Positions 7,726 through 63,851 of a stretch of 64,000 bases of DNA are shown one piece after another. The DNA is taken from NCBI GenBank assembly GCA_026874595.1, contig CM049316.1:53577676-53641675 (forward strand). The letters run 5' to 3'. Each line of letters opens with the position of its first letter. Position 1 is the stretch's first letter. Origin of the DNA: Sipunculus nudus (Eukaryota > Annelida > Sipuncula > Golfingiida > Sipunculidae). The position numbers and the translations under genes were made by a program. The notes under the pieces were generated by a model. That model was given only the letters and a program-made list of their open reading frames with translations. It did not search any database and was not told where the DNA came from.

Positions 7726-7860
7726 GAACAAACAGAGGAGGTCACGAGAAAGTTGGTAGAAACACAGGACAGGGAACAAGAACTCAGACGCAGCTTGAAT
7801 AGTCTTGAGGAATCAGCCGCCAAAATGGAAGCAGAAAAACTGAAGCAGCTTGCACAGGAG
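7726..7860 (+). CDS. LRRCC1: LRRCC1-like exon 1 of window
   Basis: 45 codons, phase 0 at both ends. The acceptor is TTTTGTCTTCAG and the donor GTAAAATC. It begins EQTEEVTRKLVETQDREQEL and ends AEKLKQLAQE, a regular heptad-like coiled coil with almost every residue charged or polar. Reading past the donor meets a stop within three codons, which supports the exon end. Upstream exons are expected outside the window or unrecognised before 7726. Confidence 0.85.
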
Positions 7861-16300: not shown

Positions 16301-19300
16301 GCTCTGTTCTCATTCCAATAAAAAATTCTGAACTGCATTTCTTTTAAGATAACATCTCATAAAATATCTTTCCAATAAATAAATTTGATATATACTTCAA
16401 CGATGCCAAATACATGACGTTTTGATGATTGCATTTTATGTCGCTAGTTAGCCGGGTGTTCTATGTATATAGGCCATAAATCTTTCATGGCGTTGCAAAT
16501 TGTTCGAAATTTTCATATATACAATTAAAATATAACAATTTTATATATATATAAAACAAGACAAAAATATTACAAATTATCCTTGATATTACAAGTTAAG
16601 TGATAATAAAACGAGACATTGTAACGCTTGCACATGATGTCGGCGTCGCCAGTCAGCCGGATGGTCTATGTAAATAGGCCATTCTTCCTTCATGGCATTG
16701 CAAATGGTTCGATATTTTCATATATACAATAAAAATGCTAAATAAATGTATTTCTTTATATTTATATATCGATGTATATATATGTAATAAGACAGCAAGA
16801 CAGCAAAATACCCTAGATATTGCTAGGTTAGTGATAATAAAACGAGACAATGTAACGCGTCGCCATATAGCTGGGTGGTCTATGTGAATGAGCCGTTCTT
16901 CCTTAAGGACATTTCCAACTGCTTGATATTTTCATATTTACATTCATAATGCTATATATAATATAAAAAATGCATGTATTATAGCCTTTGTTTATTAAAC
17001 CCATATGTTATTGATAGAGCGTCTGACTGGGACCCGTTCAACTGGGACCCATCCGACTGGGACCCGTCCAGATGGGATCGAAAAAATCCGACACGTCTAT
17101 CTGAAACCCGTCCATTTGGGATGACACTGTTTACATTATTACATAATCAGTTGATTCATCATGTAACCATATAATATGAATTTATGGTTCTTCTAGTTTT
17201 ATGTTTTCTATACATGGGGCATGGGATAACCCTTGTTACCTGGAGCAAATCTGAAATGTTCTAGCTGTTGTTATATTACCATGTAACTTCGGTGGATGTG
17301 GCATTTAAATCTTTACTCTAAGCTGCAAAATTCAAACTTAAACCCTACAGTCTAGCTTGTATTTGACTAAGATATTAAGTTTATTTAAGGTTGGCAAAGC
17401 TTTGGTTATGTTAGATTAGTTGATGCAGTGTCTTTCTCTTATTCTTCCAGACTAAAAATGCACAAGAGGCAGACATGAGAGCAGCAGCCAGCAGAAGAGA
17501 GTGCGAGATGTTAAACCACAGTGTTAATGGGCTGAGGGAGCAGGTCCGTCAACTACAGGAGCTGTTATCCAGCAGAGAACAGGAACACAGGTCAGTCAGC
17601 AGTCACACCTTTACTGGTACAGACCCCTCACCTTGTCTGTCCACTACATACTGTCCAATTACCCACACCCTCAACAAGACAAAGTAATTAAACAGTCACT
17701 CCATATCACTAACTGAGTTCTTTGGTTGGAACAGAGGTAGTTTATTTACACTGGAAAGTAAAATTATCATATAGAAAATGCATCGAGTCTTTTCAAGAAT
17801 TCTCCACACTTAGCTAAATTGCTGATAACATTGTAAATTTAAAAAAGCCAAAAGTTAAAATTAATGTGTTTCATTTACTTGAAATGGGATATCTGACTGT
17901 CCACAGGGCTAGAAATTTGCGAGATTTTTCACTAGACAGAAGGATCCTTGGATTGTTGTCTTATTGTTGGTATCGATTAGCCTAACATTTGTTTCCAGTT
18001 GTCATGCTTGTACATGGAAGGGGTTTATTTCTGTAAATTGTCTTATTTGAAAGGAGGATTAAATTAACATGTTTCCTTGCTAAAGCAGTTAAATTTTGTT
18101 TGCATTCAATAACACTATAGTTAGATTTAAAGAGCTATGACAAGGTCCAGAGACATTTGATTCTGCTGTTAACTTTACTTTGCATATTGGATAAATTCTG
18201 TCAAAAAATTTTAAGGAAAAAATAAATAAGAAAAGTGGATTTTGTCCTTATATCATTCTTTTTGTTTAAATACAGTTGTCATTATTCATTTGATGAAACC
18301 ATTTTGTACAATTTAATATTACAGAAAAGCTGCCTCAGGATCAGGGTTAATTTATCTACTTTGATATCATATCTAGCAGAAAATGATTTGATCCAGGGAG
18401 TAATTAATGTTCCAGTTGATTACAGTCTAAATGCTTATAATGAGAGATGATGTAGGGAGAGTTACAGACCATTGAAGTGTAATGTGAGCTCATCCAGAGG
18501 TTTAAAGGAGGGAGAAGAGTAAACCTTGATTGGCATTTTGTAGGGATGAGATGACCCATTTGATAGGGGCTTATACAATTTCCTAGAAGACACACAGCCA
18601 CAAATGATATTTTATGACTGAGATCATACACTTGATAATTGGTTGTAAAACACCCGTAGTGACACTTGGATGAAAAACACCATCCATCTCCAGGCCATCA
18701 GTCTTGTGGTAGCCAGATGTACTAAGAAGAACAGGTTTACCTTCTGTAACAAAAAGGAGGCAGAAAGTGCAAACGGAGCATGGTATGTCCTTAACAATTA
18801 CGCAGGAATATTGAGATTTTCCTCATGCAAGGACTCTATATGTTATCATAATAACATATTTGATAACTTGTATTTCATGCAAGATACCTATATGGAAACG
18901 TTCATTACTGACATACATATTACATGTTGTATTGATAGATCTGTTACTCCTGTGTTTATCGATCACTTAGCATGGTCACCTGCCAACATCAAAACAAGCA
19001 CTTAATTGACTTCAGCAGCACCCGGCAAACTTGGATAGAGGCGAAAATAGGATTAGAGAGTGATCAAGTTTGTCTACAACCAAGGAAACAATTCATGTTG
19101 ATTTGCTTAGATCAAAGGTCAAGGTCAAAGAAATATCATGTATTGTAAAATCTTCAGTCCTTTTATCACAGAATGATGTGCCCTGGTCCGGTTTATAGTA
19201 TGTAAAATCAGTGATATGTAGGTCAAGGTTATAGAAAATATCAAAGTGTATTGGGATGTACTTTGATATAGTATCATTAATTTATGTTTCTGCCAGTCAA

Positions 19301-28300: not shown

Positions 28301-31300
28301 TGCACTCATGCCAGAATTTCAGCAGTGATGTTTGTGTAATTGTTTCTTATTCAAAATGTTTAGTAATTGCATCATTCATATACATGAGAAGTAATGGTCC
28401 AGCATTGAAGCATTAAACCTGGTGTATTTCCCGATGCACAGGTTCACATTAGGCCTGTAGGCCTTGTTTAAATTAAAATATGAGAATCATAGTCATTAAA
28501 AAATTAGAACATTATTCAATTAATATGGAATACTTATACACATGTAAAATTGTTCATGTTTGACATGACATTTTTAGGTGGATATGACTGGATTCAGCAT
28601 CATTATAAATACACATAATCATGGGCACATATTTGTCAATTATTTACCTTATCATATTGTCAATCTTGTCACTTCAGAGTGTTGTTTGACTGTCACACTT
28701 TGTGAGACTAGCTGCAAGGTTAACTAACTGTGTCAAAGTCCAAGGCCAGAGATTATGTAACATAAAAAATTACATCAAACTTGAAACTGAATCTATAGTG
28801 CTGCCGATCCCATTTATAAATTTAAAAATATATTTGGACATTTCTCATATGAGGTTAACAAATCTTAAACCTGCCCTTTGCAACACTGTCATATACATTA
28901 TTAATTTTAGATTATAATAAAATGGAAATTAGATATGCTGTAATTATGGTATTTGCTGAACACTAAAATATACATTGTATGATTGTATTATGAAGATTGT
29001 ATTATGACTCAATGCAAAGTCTCTCAGCTGAATATCATGACCAAATGGTGACTTTTTATAATAGTAAAACTTTGAGTTCAAACTAAATACTCATAAATAA
29101 AACTCATGTCTTTTCTCTCATGAATTGTAGGAAGGAAATGGAAAGAAGAGTCTCACTTGAAAGTCCAAAGCTTCAGGAAATAATAAACCGTGAGCGTTCC
29201 AAACAGGAGTCACATCACACTCAACAGCTGCAGCTTCAGCAACAGCAGTAAGTATACCCACATGTTACATGGTCAGCGTTCCAAACAGGAGTCACATCAC
29301 AATCAGCAGCTGCAGCTTCAGTGACAGCAGTAAGCATACCCACATGTAACAAGGTCAGCGTTCCAAACAGGAGTCACAGCACACTCAACAGCTGCAGCTT
29401 CAGCGACAGCAGTAAGTAAACCCACATGTTACACGGTCAGTGTTCCAATCAGGAGTCACAGCACACTCAACAGCTGCAGCTTCAGTGACAGCAGTAAGCA
29501 TACCCACATGTTACATGGTCAGTGTTCCAAACAGGAGTCACAGCACACTCAACAGCTGCAGCTTCAGTGATAGCAGTAAGTATACCCACATGTTACACGG
29601 TCAGTGTTCCAAACAGGAGTCACAGCACACTCAACAGCTGCAGCTTCAGTGACAGCAGTAAGTAAACCCACATGTTACACGGTCAGTGTTCCAAACAGGA
29701 GTCACTTCACACTCAACAGCTGCAGCTTCAGCGACAGCAGTAAGTATACCCACATGTTACACGGTCAGTGTTCCAAATAGGAGTCACATCAAGCTCAACA
29801 GCTGCAGCTTCAGTGACAGCAGTAAGCATACCCACATGTTACATGGTCAGTGTTCCAAACAGGAGTAACAGCACACTCAACAGCTGCAGCTTCAGTGACA
29901 GCAGTAAGTATACCCACATGTTACACAGTCAGTGTTCCAAACAGGAGTCACAGCACACTCAACAGCTGCAGCTTCAGTGACAGCAGTAAGTATACCCACA
30001 TGTTACACAGTCAGTGTTCCAAACAGGAGTCACATCTCACTCAACAGCTGCAGCTTCAGTGACAGCAGTAAGTATACCCACATGTTACACAGTCAGTGTT
30101 CCAAACAGGAGTCACATCTCACTCAACAGCTGCAGCTTCAGTGACAGCAGTAAGTATACCCACATGTTACACAGTCAGTGTTCCAAACAGGAGTCACAGC
30201 ACACTCAACAGCTGCAGCTTCAGTGACAGCAGTAAGTATACCCACATGTTACACAGTCAGTGTTCCAAACAGGAGTCACATCTCACTCAACAGCTGCAGC
30301 TTCAGTGACAGCAGTAAGTATACCCACATGTTACATGGTCTGTGTTCCAAACAGGAGTCACTTCACACTCAACAGCTGCAGCTTCAGTGATAGCAGTAAG
30401 TATACCCACATGTTACACGGTCAGTGTTCCAAACAGGAGTCACTTCACACTCAACAGCTGCAGCTTCAGTGACAGCAGTAAGTATACCCACATGTTACAT
30501 GGTCAGTGTTCCAAACAGGAGTCACAGCACACTCAACAGCTGCAGCTTCAGTGACAGCAGTAAGTATACCCACATGTTACATGGTCAGAGTTCCAAACAG
30601 GAGTCACATCTCACTCAACAGCCGCAGCTTCAGCGACAGCAGTTAGTATACCCACATGTTACGCGGTCAGTGATGATAATTTCAATGTCCTCAGATCCAT
30701 GGAAATCCTGCACTTTGGACATTCTAAGTCCTCATGAAAAAAATAAATGCATCCACACAGAAAAAATAGGAAATACTATTATTGAAAAAAATAATGAAGA
30801 AATTTCTGTATATTTTCAATAATAACTGTTCTTGTATCTTTTGACATCAAGTTTCATTCTTGTGCAGATAATCAACATTTAAAGTATAAAAATGACATTT
30901 ATGCCCATTGTTTCCTTTGTGAATATGGAGCTGTTAGTATGATTGTAGGTAAACTTCAATCCTTACTATGAACATGCGATCATGTTTGTGTTCTCTATCT
31001 GTTCCCTTAACTTGATGAGCTGGCCTTGTCCATATGACAAGATCTTCACAAATTTAGTTTTATAGAACAAAATTCAACCTTCAGCTTGTTAAATTTTCAA
31101 TTTCATCCTTTTTCATGTACACCTAATAATAGCAAGTGATATGTGAGGAAACAGGATTTGGGAACATTATTGTCCTTGGTGATCAAAACCTTAATGAACC
31201 TGTCAGAACCGTGTGACTATATCTGCAGCGATAATAATATCAGCTAATAATAGGAGGCAGATTCATGGCCATGAGAACGGGCCACAGAGGAAGAATTCTA

Positions 31301-37300: not shown

Positions 37301-39350
37301 GGAGACATCTTGAGGGTGCAATGAAAATTAAAACATAGCCACTATGACATGTGGAGACATCTGCAGGGGATAATAAAAACTAAAACATATTGATAGGACA
37401 AGGGGCGGACATAAATTCCATGAGCTTGTTAATGCTAGCCATTGATAACTATCAAGCACTATTATTTATTACTGCTACTGCATGTCACTGTAGACTCGAA
37501 AAGAGAAAAGTGTCTCAGACCCAGAGGCAAAGTGCATATGACTGTTAGTGTTATCATCAGATATATCAGACTATAAACCCTGTACCCGTAGATTAACATG
37601 AAAAGAGCAATTCCTAAGGTCAAGCTGCTGATTCTACTGATTTTTTTGTCATTTCACCTTGAATGCATACCTCCTATGAGCAGATGTCCCTAGTTCAACC
37701 ATAGACCATCTATTTTTGTCTCTTTTACTGTCACACTTCATGTTTGAAATACATTCATTTCTTAATTAATCAGTGAACCTGCCTTTTGCCCATCCATTGT
37801 AACTCATATGCGAAGAAAATTCAAATATGACATCCAGCCAGCTTTTGGTAAGTCTTCATGGAAACCTGGAACTGGGTCATTGACCTATAATCAGTGAGCA
37901 ATATGGCAAAAATTCATTTTTTCCTCACAATAAAAGTCAAGTTATTTATTCTTTGTTTTCAAGGTTGCTGAACACATGTTTTCCCATTGTATCATAAAAT
38001 TGAACTAATGTGCTCCATTTATACGTGTCTTTGTCAAAAGCTTTAAATACACTTTTAACTAACATTGGTGAATTACATCCAGTCCATTTTGAGCTCAATT
38101 TAAAAAAGCTACAGCAGTTAATGATATATTGAAATTTGCCTAACATGTTGATCATACTTGTATTTTGTTATCAATTGATCAGGAGCAGTGCAAACATCTG
38201 TAATTAATTTTTTAAACAACAAATTCCTATGCATGCATCTTTAAGAGAATTTTGTCAGGTTTATAAGTTTGTGTCCTGCAGCTGAGTTCTTACACCTGGA
38301 GGTTTTGGCCCTGGGATGGTTAAGCTATTTAGGAAGCTAAAAATCAAATCTTTAGTTTAGCAGATTGGTCACAGTTCAAATGTTAATCTGCAAGGTAGAC
38401 TCTTCTAAAGACTGAAGGGCTGTATTAGAGGCAGCACATGTGACTGTCCCGTCCATGTGACAGAACCAGTAGCTCCCACAGGGCAGTCATATAATGGACA
38501 TCACATGACCAGGAGGTGTCATCCCACAATTCCAATACCAATTACCACCAGGGCAGCCTGGTTGGGTGGTGATGCAGGCAGGGAGGGATGCCTGGTATGA
38601 TGCAGTGTCTTAGCACTAGTGTGATTTGATCGTTCTTCTGAGACGCTGCCAGCAAGATGAGGACAGACTATCCAGTGTTAATCGGGTTACTGCTCAGCCA
38701 CACTTGATGTTCCTGCGGACACCAGACCACTTATCTGGTTTCATGTCACAGAAAGCGAAGCAAGTCTTTTGAAACAGAATCACGGTCACATTCTCCTTGT
38801 CATGACAGAGGAACATGAAGGGCGTAGATTGTTAATTTAATTAACTATATCCTACTCTCATTACATCTTATTCTTACTGCATAATCAAAAGGGCTGTCCA
38901 TCATTTCTTTGATATCAAGGGATGTAATCAAACTAAATTCAACACTCATCAAAAGTACCTTCCAGGATTATTAGAATAACTTGTGCAAATATTAGTCATT
39001 GTTATTTTCATTAAGAGTAAATGCTTAAATGTATTACCTTTTCTGTCCATTGTCCTTATTACCCATCAGTGCTGAAAGCTTACCCATGGTCATTTATCAT
39101 TTCATTTGACATTCTAATGGTTATGATTTAGAGATTTTGAGTCAAATGCCTATAAGCTGTTCATGTGCACCAAAATATCAGATATTCCTATATCAGACTT
39201 TTCATCAGACTGTTTAAAGAGTTTTTCACAGGTCACATCTCTGATCATTTTTATTGGGTTTGACAACAAAGCTCTTTCTTTATTTCTCTCTCTCTTTCTT
39301 TCTCTTTCTCTCTCTCTCTATCTCTCTCACACACACACATACATATATGT

Positions 39351-39426
<76 letters not shown>

Positions 39427-42400
39427 TTAGAGTTTTTCATCCTTTGGTCATCCTGATTGTAAATTAGAACTTAAATTAAGTGAAGATAGACTTATGCTGT
39501 CAGAGAAAAAAAGTTTAAATAGTTTAAATGAAACATGGTATTTCTTTGATTTCTGGGATCTTAAATTAAGGAGAGTCAATTTGTGATGTTTTTGGTTGGC
39601 ATTAATTATTTGTCGAGTTAAATAAAATCAGGTCATGTTTAACTGTATATATGTTATGGCTTGCCTGTGATCTCCATTGAACCATGGATATCACACAGGA
39701 TTGATTCATCATACAGTGATACAGTGAAGGCATGTACATTATGGAAACTTAAATATTTTTTATAAAAAAGTTGTTACTTTATTTTTTTTTAGTTAAATGC
39801 AAAAGGATTCTGATTTTCTTGATCATCCACATAATTCATCCCAGCTATCTTTTCTTGATCATCCTGCAAGCCTTGGTGGTTAAGAATTCCTGAGTTTAAA
39901 TTTTGATTTTGTCAGTATTGTTTCTTGGTTGTATTTTCAGGCTAGATCAGTTAACCCGACAGTACTCTGAGCTGGAGGACGAGTTTCGGGCAGCCCTCCA
40001 GATTGAAGCTTCTCGGTATAATGAGGTCAGTTTGTCCCATTTAATCATCATGAAACACTTATATATAGCTATAAATAGTTTGATTTTTCTCTGAATATTT
40101 GTGGTAATCAGTTATTCCAATTTCACTTCAGTTAGAATTTCCAAAAAGATGGCATAGAGGTTTAGACATGGATTGAAGATCATGTCATATGTTCTGGAGA
40201 TGCTTTTACTTCTAATAATTTTGTATAATAATTCATGTTAAAAAAGAATGTTACAATTGAGTCTCAGTATTCAGCATTTTCTGTAATACTTTTCCAGAAG
40301 CCTTGGCCATTTCCTTGACATGGCAACATTCACCAAACAACTTAGTGAACAGTCATACAAAACTAGAAGTCAGTATTTATTCTAAAAATATGTGGCTGAC
40401 ATATTGATTTTGGCTTTTTACCTTGTTTACTTGGGGGCACTCTAATCCTGATAGTACCTTTATAATCAAGTAATACGTCCTGATCATGTGGGACATACTT
40501 TATATGGCATCACATTTAAGGTGATGTCAGTCTGTGTGGAGAACACCCCCTCACAGATGACCAGATGACGTCAACCCTGCCTGTTGTGTTGTTATGTACC
40601 AGGGATTATGACCAGGGATTTCCTGCATGGGTGCATCTTATGAGTATTTCCTTTGATGTAGAGTCATGTGAGGTCATGTGATATATAATGTCTGTGCTGC
40701 ATCAACTACATATGACCTGTTGGGTCTGACATCCATGCGGATGTCACAGTGTGAACACAGGGAATAGATTTTAATGTTTGATTAAGACACCAGAGGTCAG
40801 CATGTTAATGCAAGCCAGGATCGCTGTCTGATCCACTGAGATTGAGTTATCTACTGTTATGGTAGCCTTTTTTCAAGCTTACTTTGCAGTTCTGACACCT
40901 CCATACTTGAACAATTAAATTGTGGCCATGCAGGAACCTCTTAATTGTCAAGACAACTGTGTAAATACATAGTTGTTAATTTTATTATTAACTCACCTGT
41001 GAGCTATAGCCAAGGTGTATGTCTGTAGTCTATCATCTGATGCCTGTCAGTACAAGCAGCTTATTTCAGGAATGGTTTGACAGATTTTCCTGAAATTTTG
41101 TATATAGGTGTAAATTAAACGGGCTAAGTAAGTCACAAACCAGATGGCTCCACCAACATTTTTTGTGTGATTTTTTGTGCTTTTTTGTGTGTTATGGGCT
41201 CATGAGAAATTGTATTCTATTGAGCGTTGTTAATTCCCAGCTTCCACAGTAAACCTGACCATCTGATCCTATGTAACAAAATATGACATAATGATTTACT
41301 GAGTGGTAGTTGAAGAAACCAGATAGGACCACCGCGTCACTAATATCTGTGAAATCAGATAGAACCACCGCGTCACTAATATCTGTGAAATCAGATAGGA
41401 CCACCTCATTAATATCTGTGAAATTAGATAGGACCACCGCGTCACTGATATCTGTGAAATCAGATAGGACCACCGCGTCACTAATATCTGTGAAATCAGA
41501 TAGGACCACCGCGTCACTAATATCTGTGAAATCAGATAGGACCACCGCGTCACTAATATCTGTGAAATCAGATAGAATATATGAAGTATCTGGAACATCA
41601 ACAGTGCAGTCTCTTACACAAAGTATTTTTATTTGGTTTTGGTTGTTTAAGAGAATGTCAGAATACCATACAGACTTACTTTGTGACCTGTCACACATTG
41701 TTGAAGGTCTGACCAATCAAGAACAGGCTGGACAGTCAGGGAAGAGGGATGTACCAGTATCCCCATGAACCTACACAAACCAGCCATACCCCCAGTACTC
41801 CCTACTAAGACACTCTAAACTAATTGTTGTAATCATCACCAGTGAGTAAGAATCACATGCCAGGGGCAGGATGAAACATAGTGGTGAAGTCCTTAGACTA
41901 CTGAACTGGAGGTCACAAGTTCACACCCCACTGATGCCTCAAGGGCAACCTGGTGAAATCTCACATGTGAAAAAACACATAGTCTTTATGGTATATGTTT
42001 ATACCTTCAGCCTCATTCAATAGACACTGACACTAACAGACCATGGACCCATAAATCAGGAAAACTAAAAAAAAAACTAGAATACGGGTAGTCGACAAGC
42101 GACTACGTGTATCCGCCTAAATCAGAGTGGAACGGGTGAAGTGAGGCATGGATTGAGTGGCAAGGGGAAATAGAGTGAAGTGTTGCATATTAGCATGGAT
42201 GTCTGCAGCCAAATGGTGTATGTAGGTTGCGCCACCTACCACAAAATCCAGAAAGCCGCCCAAGTTGTATACATATGTAAAATTTGAGGCAGACAAGTCA
42301 AACCACTATATGTTTATGAGTGATTTTAGCCCCTGGCAGACAAACAGATGGACGCTGTGCAAAAATGGTTGTAGGTAGCGCCACTAGTTTTGCGTATGAT

Positions 42401-51400: not shown

Positions 51401-54400
51401 TGCCAACCTCTTACCTTACATACACACATACACTAGGTACAGTAGTCAAGGCTGCCAACCTCTTACCTTATATACACACATACACAAGGTACAGTAGTCA
51501 AGGCTGCCAACCTCTTACCTTATATACACACATACACCAGGTACAGTAGTCCAGACTGCCAACCTCTTACCTTATATACACACATACACAAGGTACAGTA
51601 GTCCAGACTTCCAACCTCTTACCTTACATACACACATACACAAGGTACAGTAGTCAAGGCTGCCAACCTCTTACCTTATATACACACATACAAAAGGTAC
51701 AGTAGTCCAGGCTGCCAACCTCTTACCTTATATACACACATACACTAGGTACAGTAGTCCAGACTGCCAACCCCCTTACCTTACATACACACACACACTT
51801 GGTACAGTAGTCAAGGCTGCCAACCTCTTACCTTATATACACACATACACAAGGTACAGTAGTCCAGACTGCCAACCTCTTACCTTACATACACACATAC
51901 ACTAGGTACAGTAGTCCAGGCTGCCAACCTCTTACCTTATATACACACATACACAAGGTACAGTAGTCCAGGCTGCCAACCTCTTACCTTACATACATAC
52001 ATACACAAGGTACAGTAGTCAAGGCTGCCAACCTCTTACCTTACATACACACATACACTAGGTACAGTAGTCAAGGCTGCCAACCTCTTACCTTATATAC
52101 ACACATACACAAGGTACAGTAGTCCAGACTGCCAACCTCTTACCTTACATACACACATACACTAGGTACAGTAGTCCAGGCTGCCAACCTCTTACCTTAT
52201 AAACACACATACACTAGGTACAGTAGTCCAGACTGCCAACCTCTTACCTTATATACACACATACACTAGGTACAGTAGTCCAGACTGCCAACCTCTTACC
52301 TTACATACACACATACACTAGGTACAGTAGTCCAGGCTGCCAGCCTCTTACCTTATATACACACATACACTAGGTAAAGTAGTCAAGGCTGCCAACCTCT
52401 TACCTTACATACACACATACACTAGGTACAGTAGTCAAGGCTGCCAACCTCTTACCTTACATACACACATACACTAGGTACAGTAGTCAAGGCTGCCAAC
52501 CTCTTACCTTATATACACACATACACTAGGTACAGTAGTCAAGGCTGCCAACCTCTTACCTTACATACACACATACACTAGGTACGGTAGTCAAGGCTGC
52601 CAACCTCTTACCTTATATACACACATACACTAGGTACAGTAGTCAAGGCTGCCAACCTCTTACCTTACATACACACATACACTAGGTACAGTAGTCAAGG
52701 CTGCCAACCTCTTACCTTACATACACACATACACTAGGTACAGTAGTCCAGACTGCCAACCTCTTACCTTATATACACACATACACAAGGTACAGTAGTC
52801 AAGGCTGCCAACCTCTTACCTTACATACACACATACACTAGGTACAGTAGTCCAGGCTGCCAACCTCTTACCTTATATACACACATACACTAGGTACAGT
52901 AGTCAAGGATGCCAACCTCTTACCTTATATACACACATACACTAGGTACAGTAGTCAAGGCTGCCAACCTCTTACCTTATATACACACATACACTAGGTA
53001 CAGTAGTCAAGGCTGCCAACCTCTTACCTTATATACACACATACACTAGGTACAGTAGTCAAGGCTGCCAACCTCTTACCTTATATACACACATACACTA
53101 GGTACAGTAGTCAAGGCTGCCAACCTCTTACCTTATATACACACATACACTAGGTACAGTAGTCAAGGCTGCCAACTTCTTACCTTATATACACACACAC
53201 ACTAGGTACAGTAGTCCAGGCTGCCAACCTCTTACCTTATATACACACATACACTAGGTACAGTAGTCCAGGCTGCCAACCTCTTACCTTATATACACAC
53301 ATACACTAGGTACAGTAGTCAAGGCTGCCGACCTCTTACCTTATATACACACATACACTAGGTACAGTAGTCAAGGCTGCCAACCTCTTACCTTATATAC
53401 ACACATACACAAGGTACAGTAGTCCAGACTGCCAACCTCTTACCTTACATACACACATACACTAGGTACAGTAGTCCAGGCTGCCAACCTCTTACCTTAT
53501 ATACACACATACAAAAGGTACAGTAGTCCAGGCTGCCAACCTCTTACCCTACATACAACACCCTATAGGATGGTAATGGCTAAAGATAAATATACAGGAT
53601 CTAGGAGAGAACTATGCCAGCTTTATGCCTAAGGGACAGTAGCCTAGCATACTAACTACTTCCCACTGACTGTATACATGGTTAATGATTGTAAAGTTAT
53701 TACTTTGACAACTCTAACATCTTTCATTCTTTATTTGGTTCAGCTTCAGAATGCATATGAGAAAATCAGCACAGAATCAGCAGAAAACAAACAGGCTCTC
53801 ATAGCTGCTCAGAGGAAAGATGAGAAGTCTTCAAACATAATCACTGAACTTACCGCAGTAAGTGTCTTCTCCTGTAAGTTGGTTTGTGAACTGAGCATAG
53901 TTTCACTGCAGTTTGTAATAGAACTGCTACTAGTGTATACATCTGATGGGGAAGTTATAATGTACTGCTAAGGCATGGAGGTCATGAGGATAACAGGTAC
54001 ATTATTCATGAGCTGGAGTTGACAGCAGTGTGAGAGTTTTGGCCATGTTGTGTATTAATTGTATTGGAGGAAATATTTGCTTTGTGAGGGCGGTGAGGTT
54101 TAACATTCCCCTTCCCCCAGCATTACTAAGGCCACATTGTTTACTCATTCTTTTAGCTAATTAATACTTCTCTCATTGCATTGTTTTCAGCTTCAACACC
54201 ACCCCTGGAACTCCCCAAGCTAGGCCCAATCTTTTTACTTCAAAATGTCATGACTTGTTTTAATTAAAAACAGTTTAGAACCAACTGTGAAATTTGTACC
54301 TTTTTTGTCGTTGAATATTTCTGGAAATTAATTTCATTTACTTTGTAAAGATTTATGTCATTTCTTCTGGCATTTAATGTGGAGAAATTCATTTTGGAGG

Positions 54401-57400
54401 AACTGATTTCAAGAATCATGACTATCTGCCTTACACATAAATCAAAACCAGTGTGACTCTGTTACTTGTCACAGCTGGAATGTTGGATATTTTTATTGTT
54501 CTTGTGCCATTCATCTGAAGATAAAACCTGCAGTTGTGAGAGTAAGTGGTTCTGGTATTGTTTAACTTCTGGATGCGGTAATGGCCAGCAAATAAGGGAA
54601 GCATATAGATTTTCAGGGCTAAGAGGAGGTATGATAAACATTGGGAACTTGAACTTGGCACTTTACCTCCTTTTTAGCTTAGTTTAAGTTCTTTTATGGG
54701 ATATAGAAATCAGTCTTATTTCATTGTCCATCCAGCCATCTGTCCTGCTGTTCACTGGGAAAACATCATTGATTTTATACCTAAATATATCATACAGTTA
54801 TAACATCCATTCAGGTCCTGATGAAATCTCCATTCTTATATAAAATAGATTGTCATGGCCTGTTTCCTTTAATTCAATTCTAGGCATGTTGAAAGTTGGA
54901 CTCATGTTAGTGAGTCATTATATCTTAAATTTAAAATTTACAATAATCATTTTTTTCACTCATACATCTTGGTCAGAATGTAAAATTTGAACAAATTTAC
55001 CCCCAAAATGCCAAAAGTATTTTTGGAATTTCATGGTATGGGCCCTGTCATTTCACATTTTCAGTTCAGCAGTCAAATCTTTTCCATTGGATCTTAAAAT
55101 TGAAATGATGTACTTCAGACAGATGTATAACAGTATCCATGTTATAGGAAGTTTTGCTGTGAAAATTAGCCAGTTTTGAAAAATAAATACCAATTGCTCT
55201 ATCATCAGAATAAATTTTCAATAATGACTGAATCAGTTGTCCTGAAATTTGTTTGAATGTGGTGCATATTGATCTGCGTTAGCATTTTCTGTTGTTTAAG
55301 ACCAGTGCTGCCACCCATAATCCCCATGTTTTAACACATATTTTCCAGAAGTATCATAGGTTGAGCTGAGCAGACAAATGGTTTGCATGGAATAAGAGGT
55401 TATGTTTCACTGACAACTATATGTATGTGTCATGATTCTTCAGAACTGCTTTTGTCACATTGGTGATTTTGGGAAATTAATTAACAACTATTTAAGTAAA
55501 ATCAGTATTGATGTTTCTTTCCATTTCCTGTTTTCTTTCTCTTGGAGCCAGATTTCTTGGATGATATCAGGTCATATAAGTGGCAAGTTCTGGACATCAG
55601 ACTCAAGCCATGATCGATCTATGTCTCACTCATTTGTGACAACATAGTTGTTGTATGTTTATACTGTAAAATCATTTTGAAAAAGTGTATGGAATCGAAG
55701 CATATTTGTTTTTATGTATTCTAAAATTGTAAGTAACTGAAGGGATCAAATGACTGTTCTCCTTTATGTAGTCTATATTGATCAGATGTTCCATCCTGCA
55801 TAACAAATAATCTTTTTATTGGATTTTGAATTCAGAATACTAAGCAGAATTTAAGGCCAAAATGTCCTGAAAAGTACTAATATAACTTCCAGACTGAACT
55901 CTTTAATTTGTGTCCAAATTGAAATGCTGGGGACAGATTGTTCATGCGTGTGTCATCACTATGTCAGTGCTGTGAACCCTGAGAGGTAAACTCAGATTTT
56001 CCGTCAAGAAAATTGGAGCTGAGATCATAAACTGTTTGGACGTAATGATTTTGTAGTCTGTTGCAATCTGCTCGACGCTGGACAGACACATATCTGCCTT
56101 GTGATTTATGTTTGTTGATATGAATCTCCATATTGTATTTTGATGATCACAGCCAAGGCTTGAAGCCCTGCACTTCTTTTGTCAGGAAAGTACAGGTGTT
56201 TACATAATAAGTAATCTTTTTTCGTTTTGTGTATTTCTTCTTACAGTATTCTACCCGTTGATGTGATAGTCTTTGTGAATCAGCAGAGTACGTTGCATGG
56301 ACTAATATACTTTTAAGTACCACCTGATCTGATACTAATAAGTACTTGTATTTTGTTTTAATCCCTGTGATATATTTGTTACCCACACCATCCAACTCCA
56401 GTTTAACATACCAGGTTAAAGTCAGAGCAAACAAAAATACTGTGGTTGCTTTTTTATTTGCAAGGCTGAAATTTCACGCTTTCTTCACTTTGAAAGTCTT
56501 GCAAGGGTTTCATTTTTGTGATTGCACCAGAATCTGTGTACTCTGAGTACAGCAGTATTTGTACTGATTTTAAATTTAAGATGACAAACCTTCACTTCCT
56601 CATTCATTTCTAGTTCATTGATTTACTTGTGATTTGTGTTACAGTCAATATTTCCCCTGCAAATACTGCATATTTTGCAATAATTAATGCTTGTATTAAT
56701 TTATATTTGTGATTACTTTACATTACTTTACTTTACATAAAACCATTGCAAATAACAAGGCAACCACAGTATAAGGCTGCAATAAAAACAAATATGTCTT
56801 GATTTGGTATTTCTCTTCAAAATTATTATGAGACTGGATGAGAGCAGAGAGTATTTGAGTCCTGTCACTGGTTATTCATAGATTTTTATCAACCAAGGAC
56901 ATTGGCCTTGGACTTTTTGAAGAGGTAGACCTAGCTTGGTGGTCAGGTACCCATGTACATCTGTGTGTTACATCAGGTTAAGGTTACTATGTGTTTTTGT
57001 TTGTGTAGATGGTCAAGGAGCAGAAGGGAAGAATCTCAGAGTTATCCAAGTCAAAACATGAACAGACATCACAGTACAAGGTACGAGGAGGCAAATATTA
57101 CTGATTTGATAAAGAACAGAAAATCAGTTACACTTTAAAGTGCAGTAGTGCAGTGTATGGCAAGAACTGCTGTGGATAAAACCAGTGTATGGCAGTAGAT
57201 AATTATAACAGAAGTAAAGTTGTGACTCTTCATAGTGTCCAAATTAGGTTTTAATAAATAGATTTCAATGCAGTTGAATGCATGGGAACATTGAATCATA
57301 GAAATATTGAAGACTAAAAATAGAGAATAAGCCTCTTAGTGTAAGGACCAAGCTGTTTGTTTCCATAATCTTCCATAGATTTAATTAATAATGTTTTCTC

Positions 57401-63400: not shown

Positions 63401-63851
63401 TGCAGCACATTGTAAAAGCTGTTACTTTATGTATATCCATGTATTTATATATGAACAGCATATTATCATAAATTTGTCATTTATTAGCCATATAGACAAT
63501 TATGAATTGTACATATATTTTTATTGTTGAGCCATTTACTTGGTCTCTGAGGAGATATGTACTCAGCCCCACTAAAAAAAGGAATCCTATATGGGTCTGG
63601 CTTTTGTTTTTACCAAGAACATATAAAGTCTATTATATTCTTATGTATGACATAAACAAGAACTGCCTAGAACAAGAACACATCTGGGACACTCATAGGG
63701 TGGGGTTTACAGTTATTGAATGTCTTTAGCTTTATGCATTGAGATTATCATTGTTTTAATAGGGGCCTCACTTGCTCAGGACAGGGGCAGACTTGAAGCG
63801 AAGATTGAGTCCTTCTCTACGGAGGTTGTGTCTCTGAAGAAACAGCTGGAG
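7726..63851 (+). CDS. LRRCC1: LRRCC1-like centrosomal coiled-coil protein, internal part (nine exons, partial at both ends)
   Basis: Joined coding exons: 7726-7860, 17451-17590, 29131-29247, 39941-40025, 53744-53857, 57009-57080, 57415-57489, 62695-62794, 63763-63851 (927 nt, 309 codons). Every junction has AG/GT borders, and exon phases chain without a shift or stop, which is strong evidence for one transcript. The product is low-complexity coiled coil rich in E, Q, K and L, with no membrane segment or catalytic motif. Segments such as LTRQYSELEDEFRAAL, GLKSERKLWGQELAQQG and ASLAQDRGRLEAKIE match my recollection of the C-terminal half of LRRCC1. Family knowledge: LRRCC1/VFL1 proteins sit in the distal centriole or basal body and help set centriole and cilium architecture; they carry N-terminal leucine-rich repeats, expected upstream of this window. 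The name rests on memory, not a search; another centrosomal coiled-coil protein is the main alternative. Confidence 0.75.
10263..10808 (-). other. Uncharacterised 181-codon open frame, probably not a gene
   Basis: Open on the minus strand inside an intron. It is Lys/Ser-rich with repeated KKES/EKK-type stretches near both ends (residues 9-35 and about 125-145) created by poly-T runs on the + strand. I recognise no domain, signal peptide or catalytic motif, and codon use mirrors the AT-rich intron. It could be a relic of a dispersed repeat or chance; transcript support would be needed to call it a gene. Confidence 0.15.
11198..11560 (+). repeat. Dispersed repeat fragment with GGCGCCACC core
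   Basis: Begins near AGCCTTAGAGGCTTAAGGGC and continues through a CCGTCCGTCCGTCC stretch and text like 'AGGATATCTCAAAAAAGATT'. It ends at TTTGGGGCGCCACCTCCAAT. The order (palindromic start, CCGTCCGTCC, long AT-rich middle, GGCGCCACC) matches other dispersed repeats here at 23.2, 24.6 and 41.0 kb. Non-coding. Confidence 0.55.
11936..12006 (+). repeat. Left terminal inverted repeat of the 5.2-kb element
   Basis: Three to four subunits of GTTGGACGGGTCCCA type. Its reverse complement is found at 17021-17127 with roughly 80 percent identity by eye. Confidence 0.7.
13033..13070 (+). repeat. (TC)n microsatellite
   Basis: Pure CT dinucleotide run. A second run lies at 13286-13331. The sequences 3' of both runs are related (AAATATGTT...TTACAATCTT), so the microsatellite and its flank were duplicated with a spacing of about 270 bp. 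Confidence 0.9.
13286..13331 (+). repeat. (TC)n microsatellite, second copy
   Basis: Long CT run in the downstream half of the local duplication described for 13033-13070. Confidence 0.95.
13880..15887. mobile_element. 2.0-kb element with perfect 25-bp TIRs and TA flanks (pogo/Tc1-mariner-like)
   Basis: Left end 13880-13904 starts CCGTAAAAGTCGTTGCAG, and 15863-15887 is its exact reverse complement over 25 bp. Each end is bounded by TA (13878-13879, 15888-15889), the target duplication expected for Tc1/mariner-pogo elements. Subterminal GTCGGGGTGCGACTTGTAAT (about 13953) recurs as GTCAGGGTGCGACTTGTAAT (about 15837); such GTGCGACTT motifs are, as I recall, typical of pogo/Tigger-type ends. The interior has no full transposase; one short minus-strand frame may be a remnant. 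It is nested within the 5.2-kb element and so inserted later. Confidence 0.8.
14307..14492 (-). pseudogene. Possible relic of a transposase N-terminus
   Basis: A 61-codon minus-strand frame inside the 2.0-kb element. It contains FRYTASKVSWYSAINRAGKK followed by a basic stretch. The order (YTAS, Lys, Ala, Gly-Lys) faintly recalls the N-terminal DNA-binding region of pogo-type transposases, but no DDE domain or intact helix-turn-helix can be followed. Local GC content is higher than the surrounding intron. This may be chance. Confidence 0.2.
16425..16975 (+). repeat. About 210-bp tandem repeat, three degenerate copies
   Basis: Copies are anchored at 16439, 16645 and 16858 by GTCGC-(C/T)AG-TAGCCGGGTG-type text, then GGTCTATGTAAATAGGCC, a CTTCCTTCATGGCATTGCAA stretch and ATATTTTCATATATAC. 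Spacing is 206 and 213 bp. It sits just inside the right inverted repeat of the 5.2-kb element and is probably part of it. Confidence 0.8.
17021..17127 (-). repeat. Right terminal inverted repeat of the 5.2-kb element
   Basis: Subunits read GACTGGGACCCGTTCAACTG and similar, the inverse of the left end. One extra, more diverged subunit (17101-17127) lies outermost and ends in TGACAC. Confidence 0.7.
17451..17590 (+). CDS. LRRCC1: LRRCC1-like exon 2 of window
   Basis: 46 codons plus 2 nt (phase 0 in, phase 2 out). The acceptor is TCTTATTCTTCCAG and the donor CAG|GTCAGT. It starts TKNAQEADMRAAASRREC and continues through LREQVRQLQELLSSREQEH. Heptad leucines in the second half fit a coiled coil. 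The split codon AG|G joins to the next exon as Arg. Confidence 0.88.
19710..21840 (+). mobile_element. AGCTCAGCTGA-family dispersed element, copy A (2.1 kb)
   Basis: Starts with a near-perfect hairpin (14-nt arms, one mismatch): TAGCTCAGCTGACT, loop ATA, AGTCATCTGAGCTA (19710-19740). CCGTCCGTCTGTCC follows. It ends near TTCAGCTGAGC and the 12-bp palindrome GACCCATGGGTC (21820-21831), then CCTTGT. The start GCTCAGCTGA and the end TCAGCTGAGC are inverted complements. The interior shares with copy B a stretch from CCTTAAATTTTGCCCAACTT (about 20270) onward and a C-rich tract (20575-20600). No transposase frame, so it is presumably non-autonomous. Confidence 0.7.
20575..20600 (+). repeat. C-rich tract in element copy A
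   Basis: Three C runs broken by single T. Copy B has a comparable C run (27604-27617) at a similar internal place, so the tract belongs to the element. Confidence 0.85.
23209..25450 (+). repeat. Composite of dispersed repeat modules (two copies of one element head-to-tail)
   Basis: TTTTAGCGAACCT-TGAGCT-ATGC and ATGGTGTGGCG-CGTC begin copies at about 23215 and 24587. Each copy has repeated modules with 'AAATCTTCTTCTC', 'CAGCCAAAT-GT-CAATATTTCACAGAAATGA' and 'TTTTTGGC-GAGTTA-GGAAG-TGAA', roughly 150-320 bp apart. Copy 1 includes GGTGGCGCCACC at about 23676; copy 2 has GGTGGTGCCACC at about 25004. Non-coding; partial modules continue to about 25450. Confidence 0.7.
25605..25950 (+). repeat. Direct duplication, unit about 180-200 bp
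   Basis: TCAAGAGTTCAATC...GCAGCCAAGCACAAGGCATG occurs at 25611 and 25810. The following GTCATGCCCCTCAGGGCAGG block occurs 177 bp apart. The first copy carries an extra 22 bp (GTGACATGTGAACACCTCAT plus GA), itself a partial duplication. Shorter variants of the AGAGTTCA-TCAGT-CAGCCAG motif continue to about 26290. Confidence 0.85.
26380..26720 (+). repeat. About 127-bp tandem repeat, 2.7 copies
   Basis: Copies start at about 26382, 26510 and 26636 with TGATATATCAGCCTGAAATT-like text. Each contains a GTATACAAGACTGGTGGTGC-type stretch, giving CAGGTGTCGCCACC, CTGGTGGTGCCACC and a decayed third form. The array abuts the start of element copy B at 26721. Confidence 0.85.
26721..28293 (+). mobile_element. 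AGCTCAGCTGA-family dispersed element, copy B (1.6 kb)
   Basis: Start hairpin TAGCTCAGCTGACT (26721-26734) pairs with AGTCATCTGAGCTA (26742-26755); the loop is longer than in copy A (TATATA-rich). A CCGTCCGTCCATCC stretch follows. The interior from about 27300 is plainly homologous to copy A from about 20270. It ends TTCAGCTGAGC then GACCCATGGGTC (28271-28282) and CCTTGT. Same orientation as copy A; no coding capacity. Confidence 0.7.
29131..29247 (+). CDS. LRRCC1: LRRCC1-like exon 3 of window
   Basis: 117 nt: one base completing Arg, 38 codons, two bases (CA) completed by the next exon to Gln. The acceptor is CATGAATTGTAG and the donor CA|GTAAGTAT. It reads KEMERRVSLESPKLQEIINR and ends in a Gln-rich run, QQLQLQQQ. 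The last 54 nt (29194-29247) are the founder part of the 82-bp repeat that fills the next 1.4 kb. Placing the boundary at GTAAGTAT rather than further on is supported by phase: the next exon continues in frame. Confidence 0.88.
29194..30669 (+). repeat. 82-bp minisatellite built from an exon/intron boundary, 18 copies
   Basis: Copies start at 29194, 29276, 29358, 29440 and every 82 bp to 30588, with no change of length in any unit. Unit 1 is 54 nt of exon 3 plus 28 nt of intron, including the 5' splice site. Copies 2-18 repeat both parts. Copies 2-17 keep CAGCAGTAAG (a GTAAG donor); copy 18 has GTTAG. Most downstream copies carry TGA where the exon has CAA in the Gln run, and a few carry CGA. 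Each copy ends in GTCAG before the next exon-like part, an AG that could act as a weak acceptor but has no clear pyrimidine tract. Confidence 0.97.
32427..34712 (+). repeat. 39-bp minisatellite, about 58 copies
   Basis: Unit is close to TACCTGGCCAATTACTAGAA plus ACAATAGTTTCTACACCAC. Variants alternate at CCAATTACTAG/CCAGTAACAAG and ACACCAC/GCAGCAG, with higher-order blocks of several units visible (for example 33.5-34.1 kb). Each unit has inverted arms GAAAC...GTTTC around AATA or TATA; GAAACTATAGTTTC is a perfect palindrome. Because 39 is a multiple of 3, long minus-strand frames with a 13-residue repeat (ETIVSCYWPG-type) arise; they have stops and no exon signals, so I read them as by-products. 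Confidence 0.95.
35735..35782 (+). repeat. (TA)n-rich tract
   Basis: Imperfect TATATA runs at 35742-35782. A separate C run (about 35907-35921) lies downstream. Confidence 0.85.
36604..37274 (+). repeat. 35-bp minisatellite, about 19 copies
   Basis: Unit is close to CTACATTGAGGTGTGGCACC followed by ATGGTTTGTCTTTGA. The period is constant; substitutions are scattered (TTAAGG/TTGAGG/TGGAGG, CTTTGA/CTCTGA). Intronic, no coding sense. Confidence 0.95.
39277..39423 (+). repeat. Compound (TC)n-(AC)n-(TA)n microsatellite
   Basis: TC-rich tract to about 39328, a short (CA)n at 39328-39338, then a (TA)n run of roughly 70 bp to 39423. It ends about 520 bp before the exon acceptor at 39940. Confidence 0.95.
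39941..40025 (+). CDS. LRRCC1: LRRCC1-like exon 4 of window
   Basis: 85 nt: one base completing Gln, then 28 codons, phase 0 at the end. The acceptor is GTTGTATTTTCAG and the donor GAG|GTCAGT. The peptide contains LTRQYSELEDEFRAALQIEA and ends SRYNE. This is one of the segments that most strongly suggested LRRCC1 to me. Flanking intron on both sides has stops in this frame. Confidence 0.9.
40988..41215 (+). repeat. Dispersed repeat fragment (ACTCACCTGTGAGCTA start)
   Basis: Starts ACTCACCTGTGAGCTATAGC, a short imperfect palindrome, then text like 'GGAATGGTTTGACAGATTTT'. A GATGGCTCCACCA core lies near 41145. It resembles the hairpin-CCGTCC-GGCGCCACC repeats elsewhere in the window but is short and decayed. 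Confidence 0.5.
41321..41574 (+). repeat. 36-bp minisatellite, 7 copies
   Basis: Unit is close to AGATAGGACCACCGCGTCAC followed by TAATATCTGTGAAATC. One unit (about 41393-41425) is 33 bp through a 3-bp loss. All unit lengths are multiples of 3, so 12-residue repeats stay open on both strands (DRTTASLISVKS-type on +, DISDAVVLSDFT-type on -). There are no splice signals or start context to suggest an exon. Confidence 0.95.
41866..41990 (+). mobile_element. Probable tRNA-derived SINE fragment
   Basis: TAGTGGTGAAGTCC (41880 on) resembles a pol III A box. About 30 bp later AAGTTCACACCCC (41917-41930) resembles a B box. This order and spacing match a tRNA-related head. The tail beyond about 41990 is not recognised. 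Not a functional tRNA: no cloverleaf or CCA-ready acceptor can be drawn. Confidence 0.45.
42078..43262 (+). mobile_element. GTAGTCG-hairpin element, copy 1 (1.2 kb)
   Basis: Begins ACTAGAATACGG, then hairpin GTAGTCG-ACAAG-CGACTAC (42088-42106), then GTGTATCCGC. It ends with hairpin GTATCCGCAAAAC-TCT-GTTTTGGCGGATAC (43230-43259). The 5' GTATCCGC and 3' GCGGATAC also pair as terminal inverted repeats. The interior is tandem modules of about 140-150 bp, each with a GGTGGCGCCACC-type core (about 42216, 42372, 42505, 42652, 42781, 42932) and 'GAGATATGAG' / 'CAGACAAACAGA' text. No coding frame of note. Confidence 0.8.
43876..44893 (+). mobile_element. GTAGTCG-hairpin element, copy 2 (1.0 kb)
   Basis: Same orientation as copy 1 and about 610 bp after it. 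Start hairpin at 43890-43908, end hairpin at 44861-44890 (one arm altered to GGCAGATAC). It is very similar to copy 1 module by module but lacks roughly 170 bp matching the region of copy 1 around 43030-43195. Cores GGTGGCGCCACC recur at about 44178, 44304, 44455, 44583 and 44733. Confidence 0.8.
45053..45140 (+). mobile_element. Decayed SINE-like head
   Basis: TAGTGGTTCAATTGTCAGCC, then about 30 bp later AAGGTCCATGGTCC, mimics the A box/B box layout of the unit at 41880 but with weak boxes. May be chance. Confidence 0.3.
47165..47335 (-). mobile_element. tRNA-derived SINE with conserved central domain
   Basis: On the minus strand: head GGGGTCGGACAGCTGAGCGG (A box 47316-47326), B box GGTTCGATC (47277-47285), then a central stretch AGGTTTTCTCCGGGTTCTCC ending CAGTTTCCTC (47202-47232). 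Box order and spacing are those of a tRNA-related SINE. The TTTTCTCCGGG...TTTCCTC block resembles the conserved central domains shared by SINE superfamilies of marine invertebrates (from memory; exact superfamily not asserted). The short 65-codon + strand frame here is antisense to it and is rejected. Confidence 0.75.
47794..53557 (+). repeat. 52-bp minisatellite, about 110 copies (5.8 kb)
   Basis: Unit is close to GGTACAGTAGTCCAGGCTGC, CAACCTCTTACCTTATATAC, ACACATACACTA. Variant sites travel together: CACAAGG/CACTAGG, TTATATA/TTACATA, CCAGG/CCAGA/CAAGG, rarer ATGCACAC. They form higher-order blocks; the first two thirds mix types while about 52.9-53.3 kb is nearly pure CACTAGG + CAAGG + TTATATA. 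Lengths are almost always 52, with rare losses (for example one 50-bp unit near 49.5 kb). The minus strand of each unit reads TATAAG|GTAAGAG, a consensus 5' splice site in antisense. Confidence 0.98.
53744..53857 (+). CDS. LRRCC1: LRRCC1-like exon 5 of window
   Basis: 38 codons, phase 0 at both ends. The acceptor is TTATTTGGTTCAG and the donor GTAAGTGTC. It begins LQNAYEKISTESAENKQALI and ends SSNIITELTA. Strong coiled-coil character. It lies about 190 bp after the end of the 5.8-kb minisatellite, so the array must be crossed and spliced out. Confidence 0.9.
53858..57008. other. Intron of 3.2 kb
   Basis: Phase-0 intron. About 54677-55350 looks like a worn dispersed repeat (TTTTAGCTTAG start, CCATCCAGCCATCTGTCC, and AGTGCTGCCACCCATAAT near 55305). 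The rest is AT-rich with only short frames. Confidence 0.65.
57009..57080 (+). CDS. LRRCC1: LRRCC1-like exon 6 of window
   Basis: 24 codons, phase 0 at both ends. The acceptor is TTTGTTTGTGTAG and the donor AAG|GTACGA. It reads MVKEQKGRISELSKSKHEQT then SQYK. The ATG here is an internal Met, not a start. It is short but conserved in the order expected after ...ITELTA of the preceding exon. Confidence 0.88.
57081..57414. other. Short intron of 334 bp
   Basis: The only intron under 900 bp in the window; phase 0, GTACGA donor and TTTATACTTCAG acceptor. No repeats seen in it. Confidence 0.8.
57415..57489 (+). CDS. LRRCC1: LRRCC1-like exon 7 of window
   Basis: 25 codons, phase 0 at both ends. 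The donor is AAG|GTATGT. It reads ERIDVLEAHVEEARKRMVQL then ELLKK. Hydrophobic a/d positions (I, L, V, M, L, L) follow heptad spacing. Exons 6 and 7 together form one continuous coiled-coil segment. Confidence 0.9.
57731..58960 (+). repeat. AGCTCAGCTGA-type element with 130-145-bp AGGTCA-rich modules (copy C, 5' part)
   Basis: Starts ACTCAGCTGACTATCAGTCA followed by a CCGGCCGGCCGGCC stretch, the same layout as copies A and B. It continues with at least four modules carrying 'CCTTCCATCTTTCACATA', 'AGCTCACCTA', 'AACAGGGGAAGAA' and an AGGTCA cluster at 58059, 58205, 58348 and 58477. A GACCCATGGGTC end typical of this family lies only at 61759, so either this copy was split by the 59.8-61.3 kb repeat or the two ends are unrelated fragments. 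Confidence 0.65.
58059..58503 (+). promoter_or_regulatory. Cluster of nuclear-receptor half-sites (AGGTCA), sequence match only
   Basis: Direct repeats spaced by one base: GGGTCAAAGGTCA (58067-58079), AGGTCAAAGGTCA (58213-58225 and 58348-58360), AAGTCAAAGGTCA (58485-58497). TCAAGGTCA occurs at 58077-58085 and 58495-58503. AGGTCA direct repeats with one spacer are the classic RXR/HNF4-type site and TCAAGGTCA the ERR/SF-1-type site. They occur because the repeat module carries them; binding or enhancer function is not shown. Confidence 0.3.
59800..61345 (+). repeat. About 330-bp tandem repeat, four to five units
   Basis: Cores at 60167 (GGTGGAGCCACC), 60491 (GGTGGCGCCACC), 60827 and 61153 (GGTGGTGCCACC) are 324-336 bp apart. 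Between cores each unit has TTGCCACTTAACAGTA, TGTGAGCATTATAAGTCA, AAACTAATGGACA, GGGGTCATGACCT, GTGGCCTTGACCTTGAAT, CATATATGGTGAAAATCACA and GATGCATGCATTGGTCCAAA. The first unit is older (starts near CAGACATAGTCTGGAGATAC); a truncated fifth ends near 61345. 60488-60507 is a perfect 20-bp palindrome. No coding content. Confidence 0.85.
61744..61780 (+). mobile_element. 3' end of an AGCTCAGCTGA-family element
   Basis: CAGCTGAGCATCATGACCCA continues through the palindrome GACCCATGGGTC (61759-61770) to ACTTGTTTTA. It matches the 3' ends of copies A and B. Its 5' partner may be 57731. Confidence 0.6.
61975..62330 (+). repeat. Worn direct duplication, spacing about 225 bp
   Basis: AAAAATAAGCGTAATTTCTT plus GACTTATTTTTC (about 61990) recurs as AAAAATAAGCATCACTTCTT plus GACTTATTTTTC (about 62217). 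A related CATTGACAAATATACCAAA / CATCAGAAATACCAAAA stretch follows each. Confidence 0.65.
62695..62794 (+). CDS. LRRCC1: LRRCC1-like exon 8 of window
   Basis: 33 codons plus one base (phase 0 in, phase 1 out). The acceptor is CATTTACTTTTTAG and the donor CAAG|GTGAGT. It reads EKTKLQSQVQAQESVIEGLK followed by SERKLWGQELAQQ. The Trp in an otherwise polar coiled coil (KLWGQEL) is distinctive and is one basis for the family call. The final G plus GG from the next exon makes Gly. Confidence 0.92.
62795..63762. other. Intron of 968 bp
   Basis: Phase-1 intron, AT-rich, no repeats recognised; the frames seen in it are short and lack exon signals. Confidence 0.75.
63763..63851 (+). CDS. LRRCC1: LRRCC1-like exon 9 of window
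   Basis: Two bases completing Gly, then 29 codons, phase 0 out. The acceptor is CATTGTTTTAATAG and the donor GAG|GTGATG (weaker than the others). It reads ASLAQDRGRLEAKIESFSTE then VVSLKKQLE. With the preceding exon it gives ...GQELAQQG-ASLAQDRG, the junction I recognise from LRRCC1. The coding region continues past the window. Confidence 0.9.

Follow-up and report, generated by a model that had tools for sequence, protein, structure and literature searches.

A minisatellite across the 5' splice site of a Sipunculus nudus exon, and arrays of apparently similar kind at exon ends elsewhere in the genome

The locus described here raises the question of how an exon end is chosen where its 5' splice site is the first in a long series of near-identical copies, and of whether an array of this sort is a singular occurrence. 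The window, meaning the whole stretch of 64,000 nucleotides that was analysed (G000:C11:53577676-53641675, in a genome of 1.43 Gb), holds part of a gene in which an 82-bp minisatellite begins inside a coding exon and runs on into the following intron. The array was interpreted from its own copies, from the reading frame of the gene, from computed pairing of its donors with U1, and from the edges of comparable arrays sampled over the genome.

Anatomy of the 82-bp array and its host gene

The features of the array and of the exon on which it begins are as follows.

29131..29247, + strand: exon C, 117 nt, contributing its final 54 nt to copy 1
29194..30669, + strand: 82-bp minisatellite, 18 copies, unit of 54 nt exon-derived and 28 nt intron-derived sequence
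29248..29253, + strand: donor 1, GTAAGT, alone among the 18 in leaving the frame open
29249..29251, + strand: TAA that falls in frame upon use of any later donor (17 of 17 later donors tested)
29330..30564, + strand: decoy donors GTAAG at 82-bp intervals in copies 2-17, with GTAAGC in copies 2, 4 and 8
30642..30647, + strand: donor position of copy 18, GTTAGT, from the unit alignment

The original prediction had described 18 copies of exactly 82 bp with no indel, and on this an independent run of Tandem Repeats Finder (TRF; 29196-30672, period 82, 18.0 copies, 94% matches, 0% indels) agrees with alignment in the register 29194 + 82k. The 18 units so aligned each differ from the consensus at 2-6 positions, with six differences in copies 2 and 18, five in copy 8, four in copies 1, 3 and 4, and two or three in the other twelve; 23 of the 82 columns are variable. 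Copy 1 comprises the last 54 nt of coding exon C followed by the donor GTAAGTAT, and a frame and junction test bears out the proposed division of the unit into 54 nt of exon end and 28 nt of intron with the donor. Direct reading of the units likewise finds GTAAG kept in copies 1-17, as had been stated, with GTTAG in copy 18. The CAA codon of copy 1, said to have become TGA in most downstream copies, has done so in 14 of the 17, the remaining three (copies 3, 7 and 18) having CGA.

Copies 11 and 12 are identical, as are copies 10 and 13, and on this basis a recent origin of the array is plausible. With regard to a possible escape of the outer copies from homogenisation, sequence distance set against spacing gives a Mantel r of 0.21 (p 0.05) among copies 2-17. 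A non-exhaustive search of the genome with the 82-bp unit gave 18 matches, all of them in the array itself.

The exons that could be joined to exon C, together with one further candidate, are these.

L005 5545-5644: exon X, in the joined open frame
L006 1219-1337: exon Y, in the joined open frame
7726..7860, + strand: exon A (EQTEEV...LAQE), phase 0, donor GAG/GTAAAA, open frame joined with its neighbours
17451..17590, + strand: exon B (TKNAQE...REQEH), ending CACAG/GTCAGT, in the joined open frame
39941..40025, + strand: exon D, the next after C, in the joined open frame
53744..53857, + strand: exon E, in the joined open frame
57009..57080, + strand: exon F (MVKEQKGRISELSKSKHEQTSQYK), in the joined open frame
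63763..63851, + strand: likely further exon G (ASLAQDRGRLEAKIES...KKQLE), a candidate outside the frame joined through F

Exon C is preceded by the acceptor TTGTAG and followed by its donor, its frame stays open through D, E and F, and the intron between C and D (29248-39940) measures 10.7 kb. It had been numbered exon 3, which holds for the exons seen within the window; among the exons joined (X, Y, A, B, C) it is the fifth. As a candidate name only, the host gene is likened to LRRCC1: exons B-F are identical to a putative stretch of the human protein at 71 of 143 positions without a gap, the C-D junction included. In Pfam the best match of the host gene (E 0.096) is to an unrelated family, in the PDB there is no match at E < 0.01, nor did a simple scan for LRR motifs turn up a convincing LRR exon in the 40 kb upstream. 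Exon C was also considered as the last exon of the gene, its TAA at 29249 being a genuine stop and the array 3' UTR, a reading rejected on the ground that exons D, E and F carry on both the frame and the LRRCC1-like protein.

Donor choice and the predicted effect of the decoys

The ladder of 16 GTAAG decoys after the true donor, as originally proposed, is correct as sequence (copies 2-17); an effect of the ladder on splicing is conjectural. When each of donors 2-18 is joined to exon D, the TAA directly follows the glutamine run and is separated from the end of the lengthened exon by 78-1390 nt. The further claim that only the first donor leaves the protein open is thus upheld by the joins of all 18 donors to exon D and by the frame of 294 codons, without a stop, that results when exons X, Y and A-F are joined at the first donors of this array and of the second array described below. 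As donor 1 yields both the normal 117-nt exon and the sole open frame, it is the expected splice site, and the first copy is very probably the one still in use.

Most of the decoys are hardly distinguished from donor 1 by their computed pairing with the 5' end of U1, which is -7.5 kcal/mol for donor 1 and, for the 16 GTAAG decoys, -7.5 in 11, -7.2 in two and -4.5 in three, the weaker three being the GTAAGC copies 2, 4 and 8; values for the donors of exons A, B, D, E and F lie between -5.6 and -8.0. Conservation does not set the decoy donor columns apart either: of the 82 six-column windows of the 82-bp unit, compared over copies 2-18, 60 are as invariant as the donor columns or more so, and in copies 2-71 of the second array, with its 32-bp unit, this is true of 9 of 32. 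There is therefore no sign of selection on the decoys, which, on this evidence, are probably tolerated by-products.

The events that would account for the locus can be set out as follows. A tandem duplication may have copied 82 bp, made up of the final 54 nt of exon C and the first 28 nt of the intron; unequal exchange or slippage could then have raised the number of units to 18, with all growth on the intron side and the true exon end staying with the exon-side copy. Were a later donor used, the exon would be lengthened by 82-1394 nt and would acquire a stop at its former edge. The usual rule for nonsense-mediated decay asks for a stop more than 50-55 nt upstream of an exon junction, and any transcripts that used a decoy donor would likely be targets of decay.

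Arrays at exon ends elsewhere in the genome

The capture of the exon boundary had been presented as a singular event, a view that does not stand, given a second such array in the host gene and many others in the genome. The second array (L005 5635-7922, window coordinates -14041 to -11754) consists of 71.5 copies of a 32-bp unit and spans a donor; about 41 kb separate its end from the 82-bp array downstream. Its copy 1 includes 10 nt from the end of exon X, followed by the donor GTATGT, which is present in 68 of 71 units. Read-through from exon X into the array continues for 60 residues, with a stop at residue 61, so that an immediate stop is not common to both arrays. Thus 2 of the 8 joined exons of the host gene end in a donor-spanning array. 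A 40-bp array with GTGAGT in its unit (L004 6862-7954) was considered as a third case in the gene and rejected, no exon being seen there.

The region is altogether very rich in arrays, with up to 111 copies, and TRF finds five further intronic minisatellites in the host gene.

5615-6256 of the window: minisatellite, 49-bp unit, with no exon seen at its left edge
32432-34710: minisatellite, 39-bp unit
36607-37279: minisatellite, 35-bp unit
41315-41575: minisatellite, 36-bp unit
47799-53557: minisatellite, 52-bp unit, whose right edge stops 186 bp short of exon E

Several places near the gene, namely 42187-42955 and 43989-44757 of the window, L004 2280-3044 and L006 269-1012, have longer units in tandem (about 270-278 bp, x2.7-2.8) whose consensus is similar; they apparently represent a dispersed element with short internal arrays.

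For the genome as a whole, the consensus donor 9-mer CAGGTAAGT was required three times, with the same motif reversed as control. At a spacing of 25-55 bp there were 400 matches as against 144 for the reversed motif, and at 56-86 bp, where partly the same arrays recur at double spacing, 388 as against 143; matches to AAGGTAAGT numbered 263 as against 59. Single sites, array copies included, differ little (15,332 for the donor motif, 12,946 reversed). Because motif matches overlap inside arrays, distinct arrays were counted instead, and among the matches listed, which cover the first 28.5% of the genome, there are 14 distinct CAGGTAAGT arrays and 2 reversed (Fisher p 0.0097 on motif occurrences).

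The exon-side edge was examined in 25 donor-motif arrays, being these 14 at 25-55 bp spacing, 9 at 56-86 bp and 2 from the single-motif list. The array starts on the 3' end of an exon in 18, is not at an exon in 6, and falls in neither class in one (L190); at L183 TRF reports no array. Shift comparison finds 7-60 exonic nt recurring in the array for 17 of the 18, and 3 nt in L180. The exons of 11 of the 18 have a Pfam or PDB match at E < 0.01.

L012: ABC transporter, below Pfam's own cut-off
L014: 3-hydroxyacyl-CoA dehydrogenase
L018: XPD, 30 exonic nt duplicated
L021: thioredoxin
L180: TPR, below Pfam's own cut-off
L182: EGF, below Pfam's own cut-off
L184: importin-13, 12 exonic nt duplicated
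L185: serine carboxypeptidase, below Pfam's own cut-off
L187: Tmemb_cc2
L188: permease, below Pfam's own cut-off
L189: SRPK1, 30 exonic nt duplicated

In XPD, importin-13 and SRPK1 the match reaches the end of the translated exon, and the copied stretch therefore lies in conserved coding sequence. The other seven exon ends (L009, L010, L011, L013, L019, L020, L186) were recognised by eye from an open frame and a plausible acceptor; L011 (PH, E 0.016) and L020 (DNA-PKcs, E 0.67) have weak matches, L010 has no match in the PDB, and L009, L013, L019 and L186 have none in Pfam. Of six distinct AAGGTAAGT arrays among the matches listed, two are at exons, two are not, and two belong to neither class.

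As a control, both edges were inspected in 9 of the 10 reversed-motif arrays listed, with 20 of the 21 edge open reading frames put through Pfam, some cut to 110 residues. None of the nine was seen to span an exon end, two of them lacking a captured edge, and the contrast of 18 of 25 with 0 of 9 gives a Fisher p of 2e-4, or of 7e-4 when only the classed arrays are compared (18 of 24 with 0 of 7). One reversed-motif array (L204, G000:C10:38694450-38695150) begins 10 nt past the end of a cadherin exon, the donor not included, and some arrays are accordingly merely near exons. In light of these comparisons, donor-spanning arrays look like a large class in this genome, far above the reversed-motif expectation.

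A sample drawn blind to repeats consisted of 60 of 138 kinase-domain matches, mainly partial-domain ones without stops, one window (L056) being shortened by the contig end. Donor-spanning arrays occur in 2 of the 60 (L047, 65 bp x 8.2; L091, 89 bp x 2.4; 95% interval 0.4-11.5%), a sample that may include exons lacking a donor, and an acceptor-spanning array in one (L083, G000:C4:81946589-81947604, 45 bp x 4.4), numbers too few to rank donors against acceptors. Past another kinase exon (L042, G000:C9:48357959-48359043) an array begins about 10 nt into the intron, the donor again not included.

Acceptor-motif arrays, of which there are 10 distinct, gave 31 matches as against 1 reversed. Three were read by eye as exon starts: L030 (G000:C2:4429800-4431000), whose exon matches USP39 (PDB, E 1e-15), and L032 and L034, whose exons have no Pfam match. 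L038 is adjacent to an exon start, L031, L033, L037 and L039 are not, and L035 and L036 fall in neither class. Units bearing TTTGCAG run into the exon starts of the USP39-like (L030) and kinase (L083) exons. The donor and acceptor motif searches are not directly comparable because TTTTGCAGG, with 45,917 single-site matches as against 6,861 reversed, is also frequent outside splice sites.

The class would comprise tandem arrays whose first copy lies on the 5' splice site of an exon; beside it there are also arrays at 3' splice sites. It is quite possible, if still somewhat doubtful, that 5' splice sites are hotspots of minisatellite birth or survival, with a few percent of exons affected, several times the rate at random intronic points; the strength of such a donor bias is uncertain, since the density of intronic arrays found by TRF may be high in general.

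Known systems and competing explanations

Minisatellites with splice donors in their units are also reported in human, where the 6-16 gene (IFI6) resembles the present case in this respect. According to the title of Turri 1995, its minisatellite supplies a transcript with several splice donors; in the 82-bp array such use would be hypothetical. The closest parallel is in lancelets, where the globin genes BflGb6 and BflGb9 have tandem repeats spanning exon-intron boundaries, both 5' and 3', according to passages of PMC3087553, which take the term "mirages" from work on Adh3 (Canestro 2002, as cited there). The same passages ascribe length instability to mirages, state that RT-PCR of Adh3 and the globins suggests no interference with regular splicing, and propose that new introns and exon shifts have arisen from the globin mirages; PMC3902484, in the portion drawn on here, adds PGBD5 and TnC as lancelet mirage genes, with splicing reportedly intact. 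Like the lancelet mirages, the 82-bp array has a minisatellite-like unit lying across an exon/intron boundary with its splice signal, and an authentic boundary, here judged by sequence, that stands beside its duplicates; by these features it is a mirage of the published kind. Unlike in the lancelet reports, the phenomenon is counted here in samples of arrays and of exons from one genome (18 of 25 donor-motif arrays and 2 of 60 exons, respectively), and a confirmed case reaches a copy number of 71.

Human segmental duplications also contain internal tandem repeats at exon-intron boundaries, and splicing can change there (PMC2812944, in the portion drawn on); the cases described in that portion are recent paralogs with novel introns, whereas exon C seems to retain its normal form. 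A paper on abalone, in its part used here, names only an intronic minisatellite. No genome-wide count of boundary-spanning arrays was found in the literature searched, which consisted mostly of papers outside subscription. What is new is probably the abundance of mirages in a genome outside the lancelets. A search of this genome for a GFP domain gave no match, which argues weakly against a lancelet, and a search for a mollusc hemocyanin domain likewise gave none, although a missing match does not prove a missing gene.

Taken together, these data make it very likely that the 82-bp array is a mirage-type minisatellite born from the end of exon C, with the decoys as by-products, and that it is one of a genome-wide class. 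An unlikely alternative is that the ladder is regulatory, some transcripts using decoys and thereby undergoing graded, copy-number-dependent nonsense-mediated decay. Such a role would fit the 13 of 16 GTAAG decoys that match or nearly match the U1 pairing of donor 1, and a stop that every later donor leaves at least 78 nt upstream of the end of the lengthened exon, which is sufficient for decay by the usual rule. However, the decoy donor columns show no excess conservation, the 32-bp array does not share the immediate stop, and lancelet mirages reportedly leave splicing undisturbed (PMC3087553 and PMC3902484, in the passages concerned). It is improbable, too, that the donor cluster aids the 10.7-kb intron, its U1 sites blocking premature cleavage and polyadenylation or strengthening exon definition, so that arrays at 5' splice sites are favoured. 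This would explain why donor-motif arrays mostly begin on true donors and reversed-motif arrays do not, but the same want of extra conservation in the decoys speaks against it, as do the loss of GTAAG in copy 18 and the presence of arrays at acceptors as well.

The direction of the process could also be the reverse, the exon end having been recruited from a pre-existing intronic array. The exonic part of the unit is rich in glutamine and shows little conservation in the alignment to LRRCC1, as such an extension of the exon would predict; yet that alignment keeps the exact length with no gap, and elsewhere the duplicated exonic parts lie in conserved protein (in XPD, importin-13 and SRPK1), which makes recruitment very improbable. 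That the array is an artefact of assembly is scarcely credible, given that its copies bear distinct variants and that many similar arrays stand at unrelated exons. With the mirage reading thus preferred, exons that end in near-identical donor ladders, if there are many of them, would offer natural tests of 5' splice-site choice, with copy number as the variable and the first donor, the nearest donor, exon length and frame as candidate rules. Mirages would then be a major genome feature outside lancelets, providing a large natural series on donor choice and a view of new introns and exon shifts as they arise. In gene annotation, exon ends may easily be mispredicted in mirage-rich genomes.

About 17 large contigs seem to hold most of the genome sequence, and a separate observation concerns the unplaced contigs of the assembly. 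Nine matches to COX1, of near-equal score and without stops, lie on such contigs (L022 1231-2964, minus strand; C60, C61, C62, C66, C72, C74, C75 and C89 of G000). The one that was read, in L022, has a COX1 of bacterial type. Among GTDB genomes its 80 best listed relatives reach only 52-58% identity, which points to an uncharacterised bacterium in the assembly, perhaps a symbiont.
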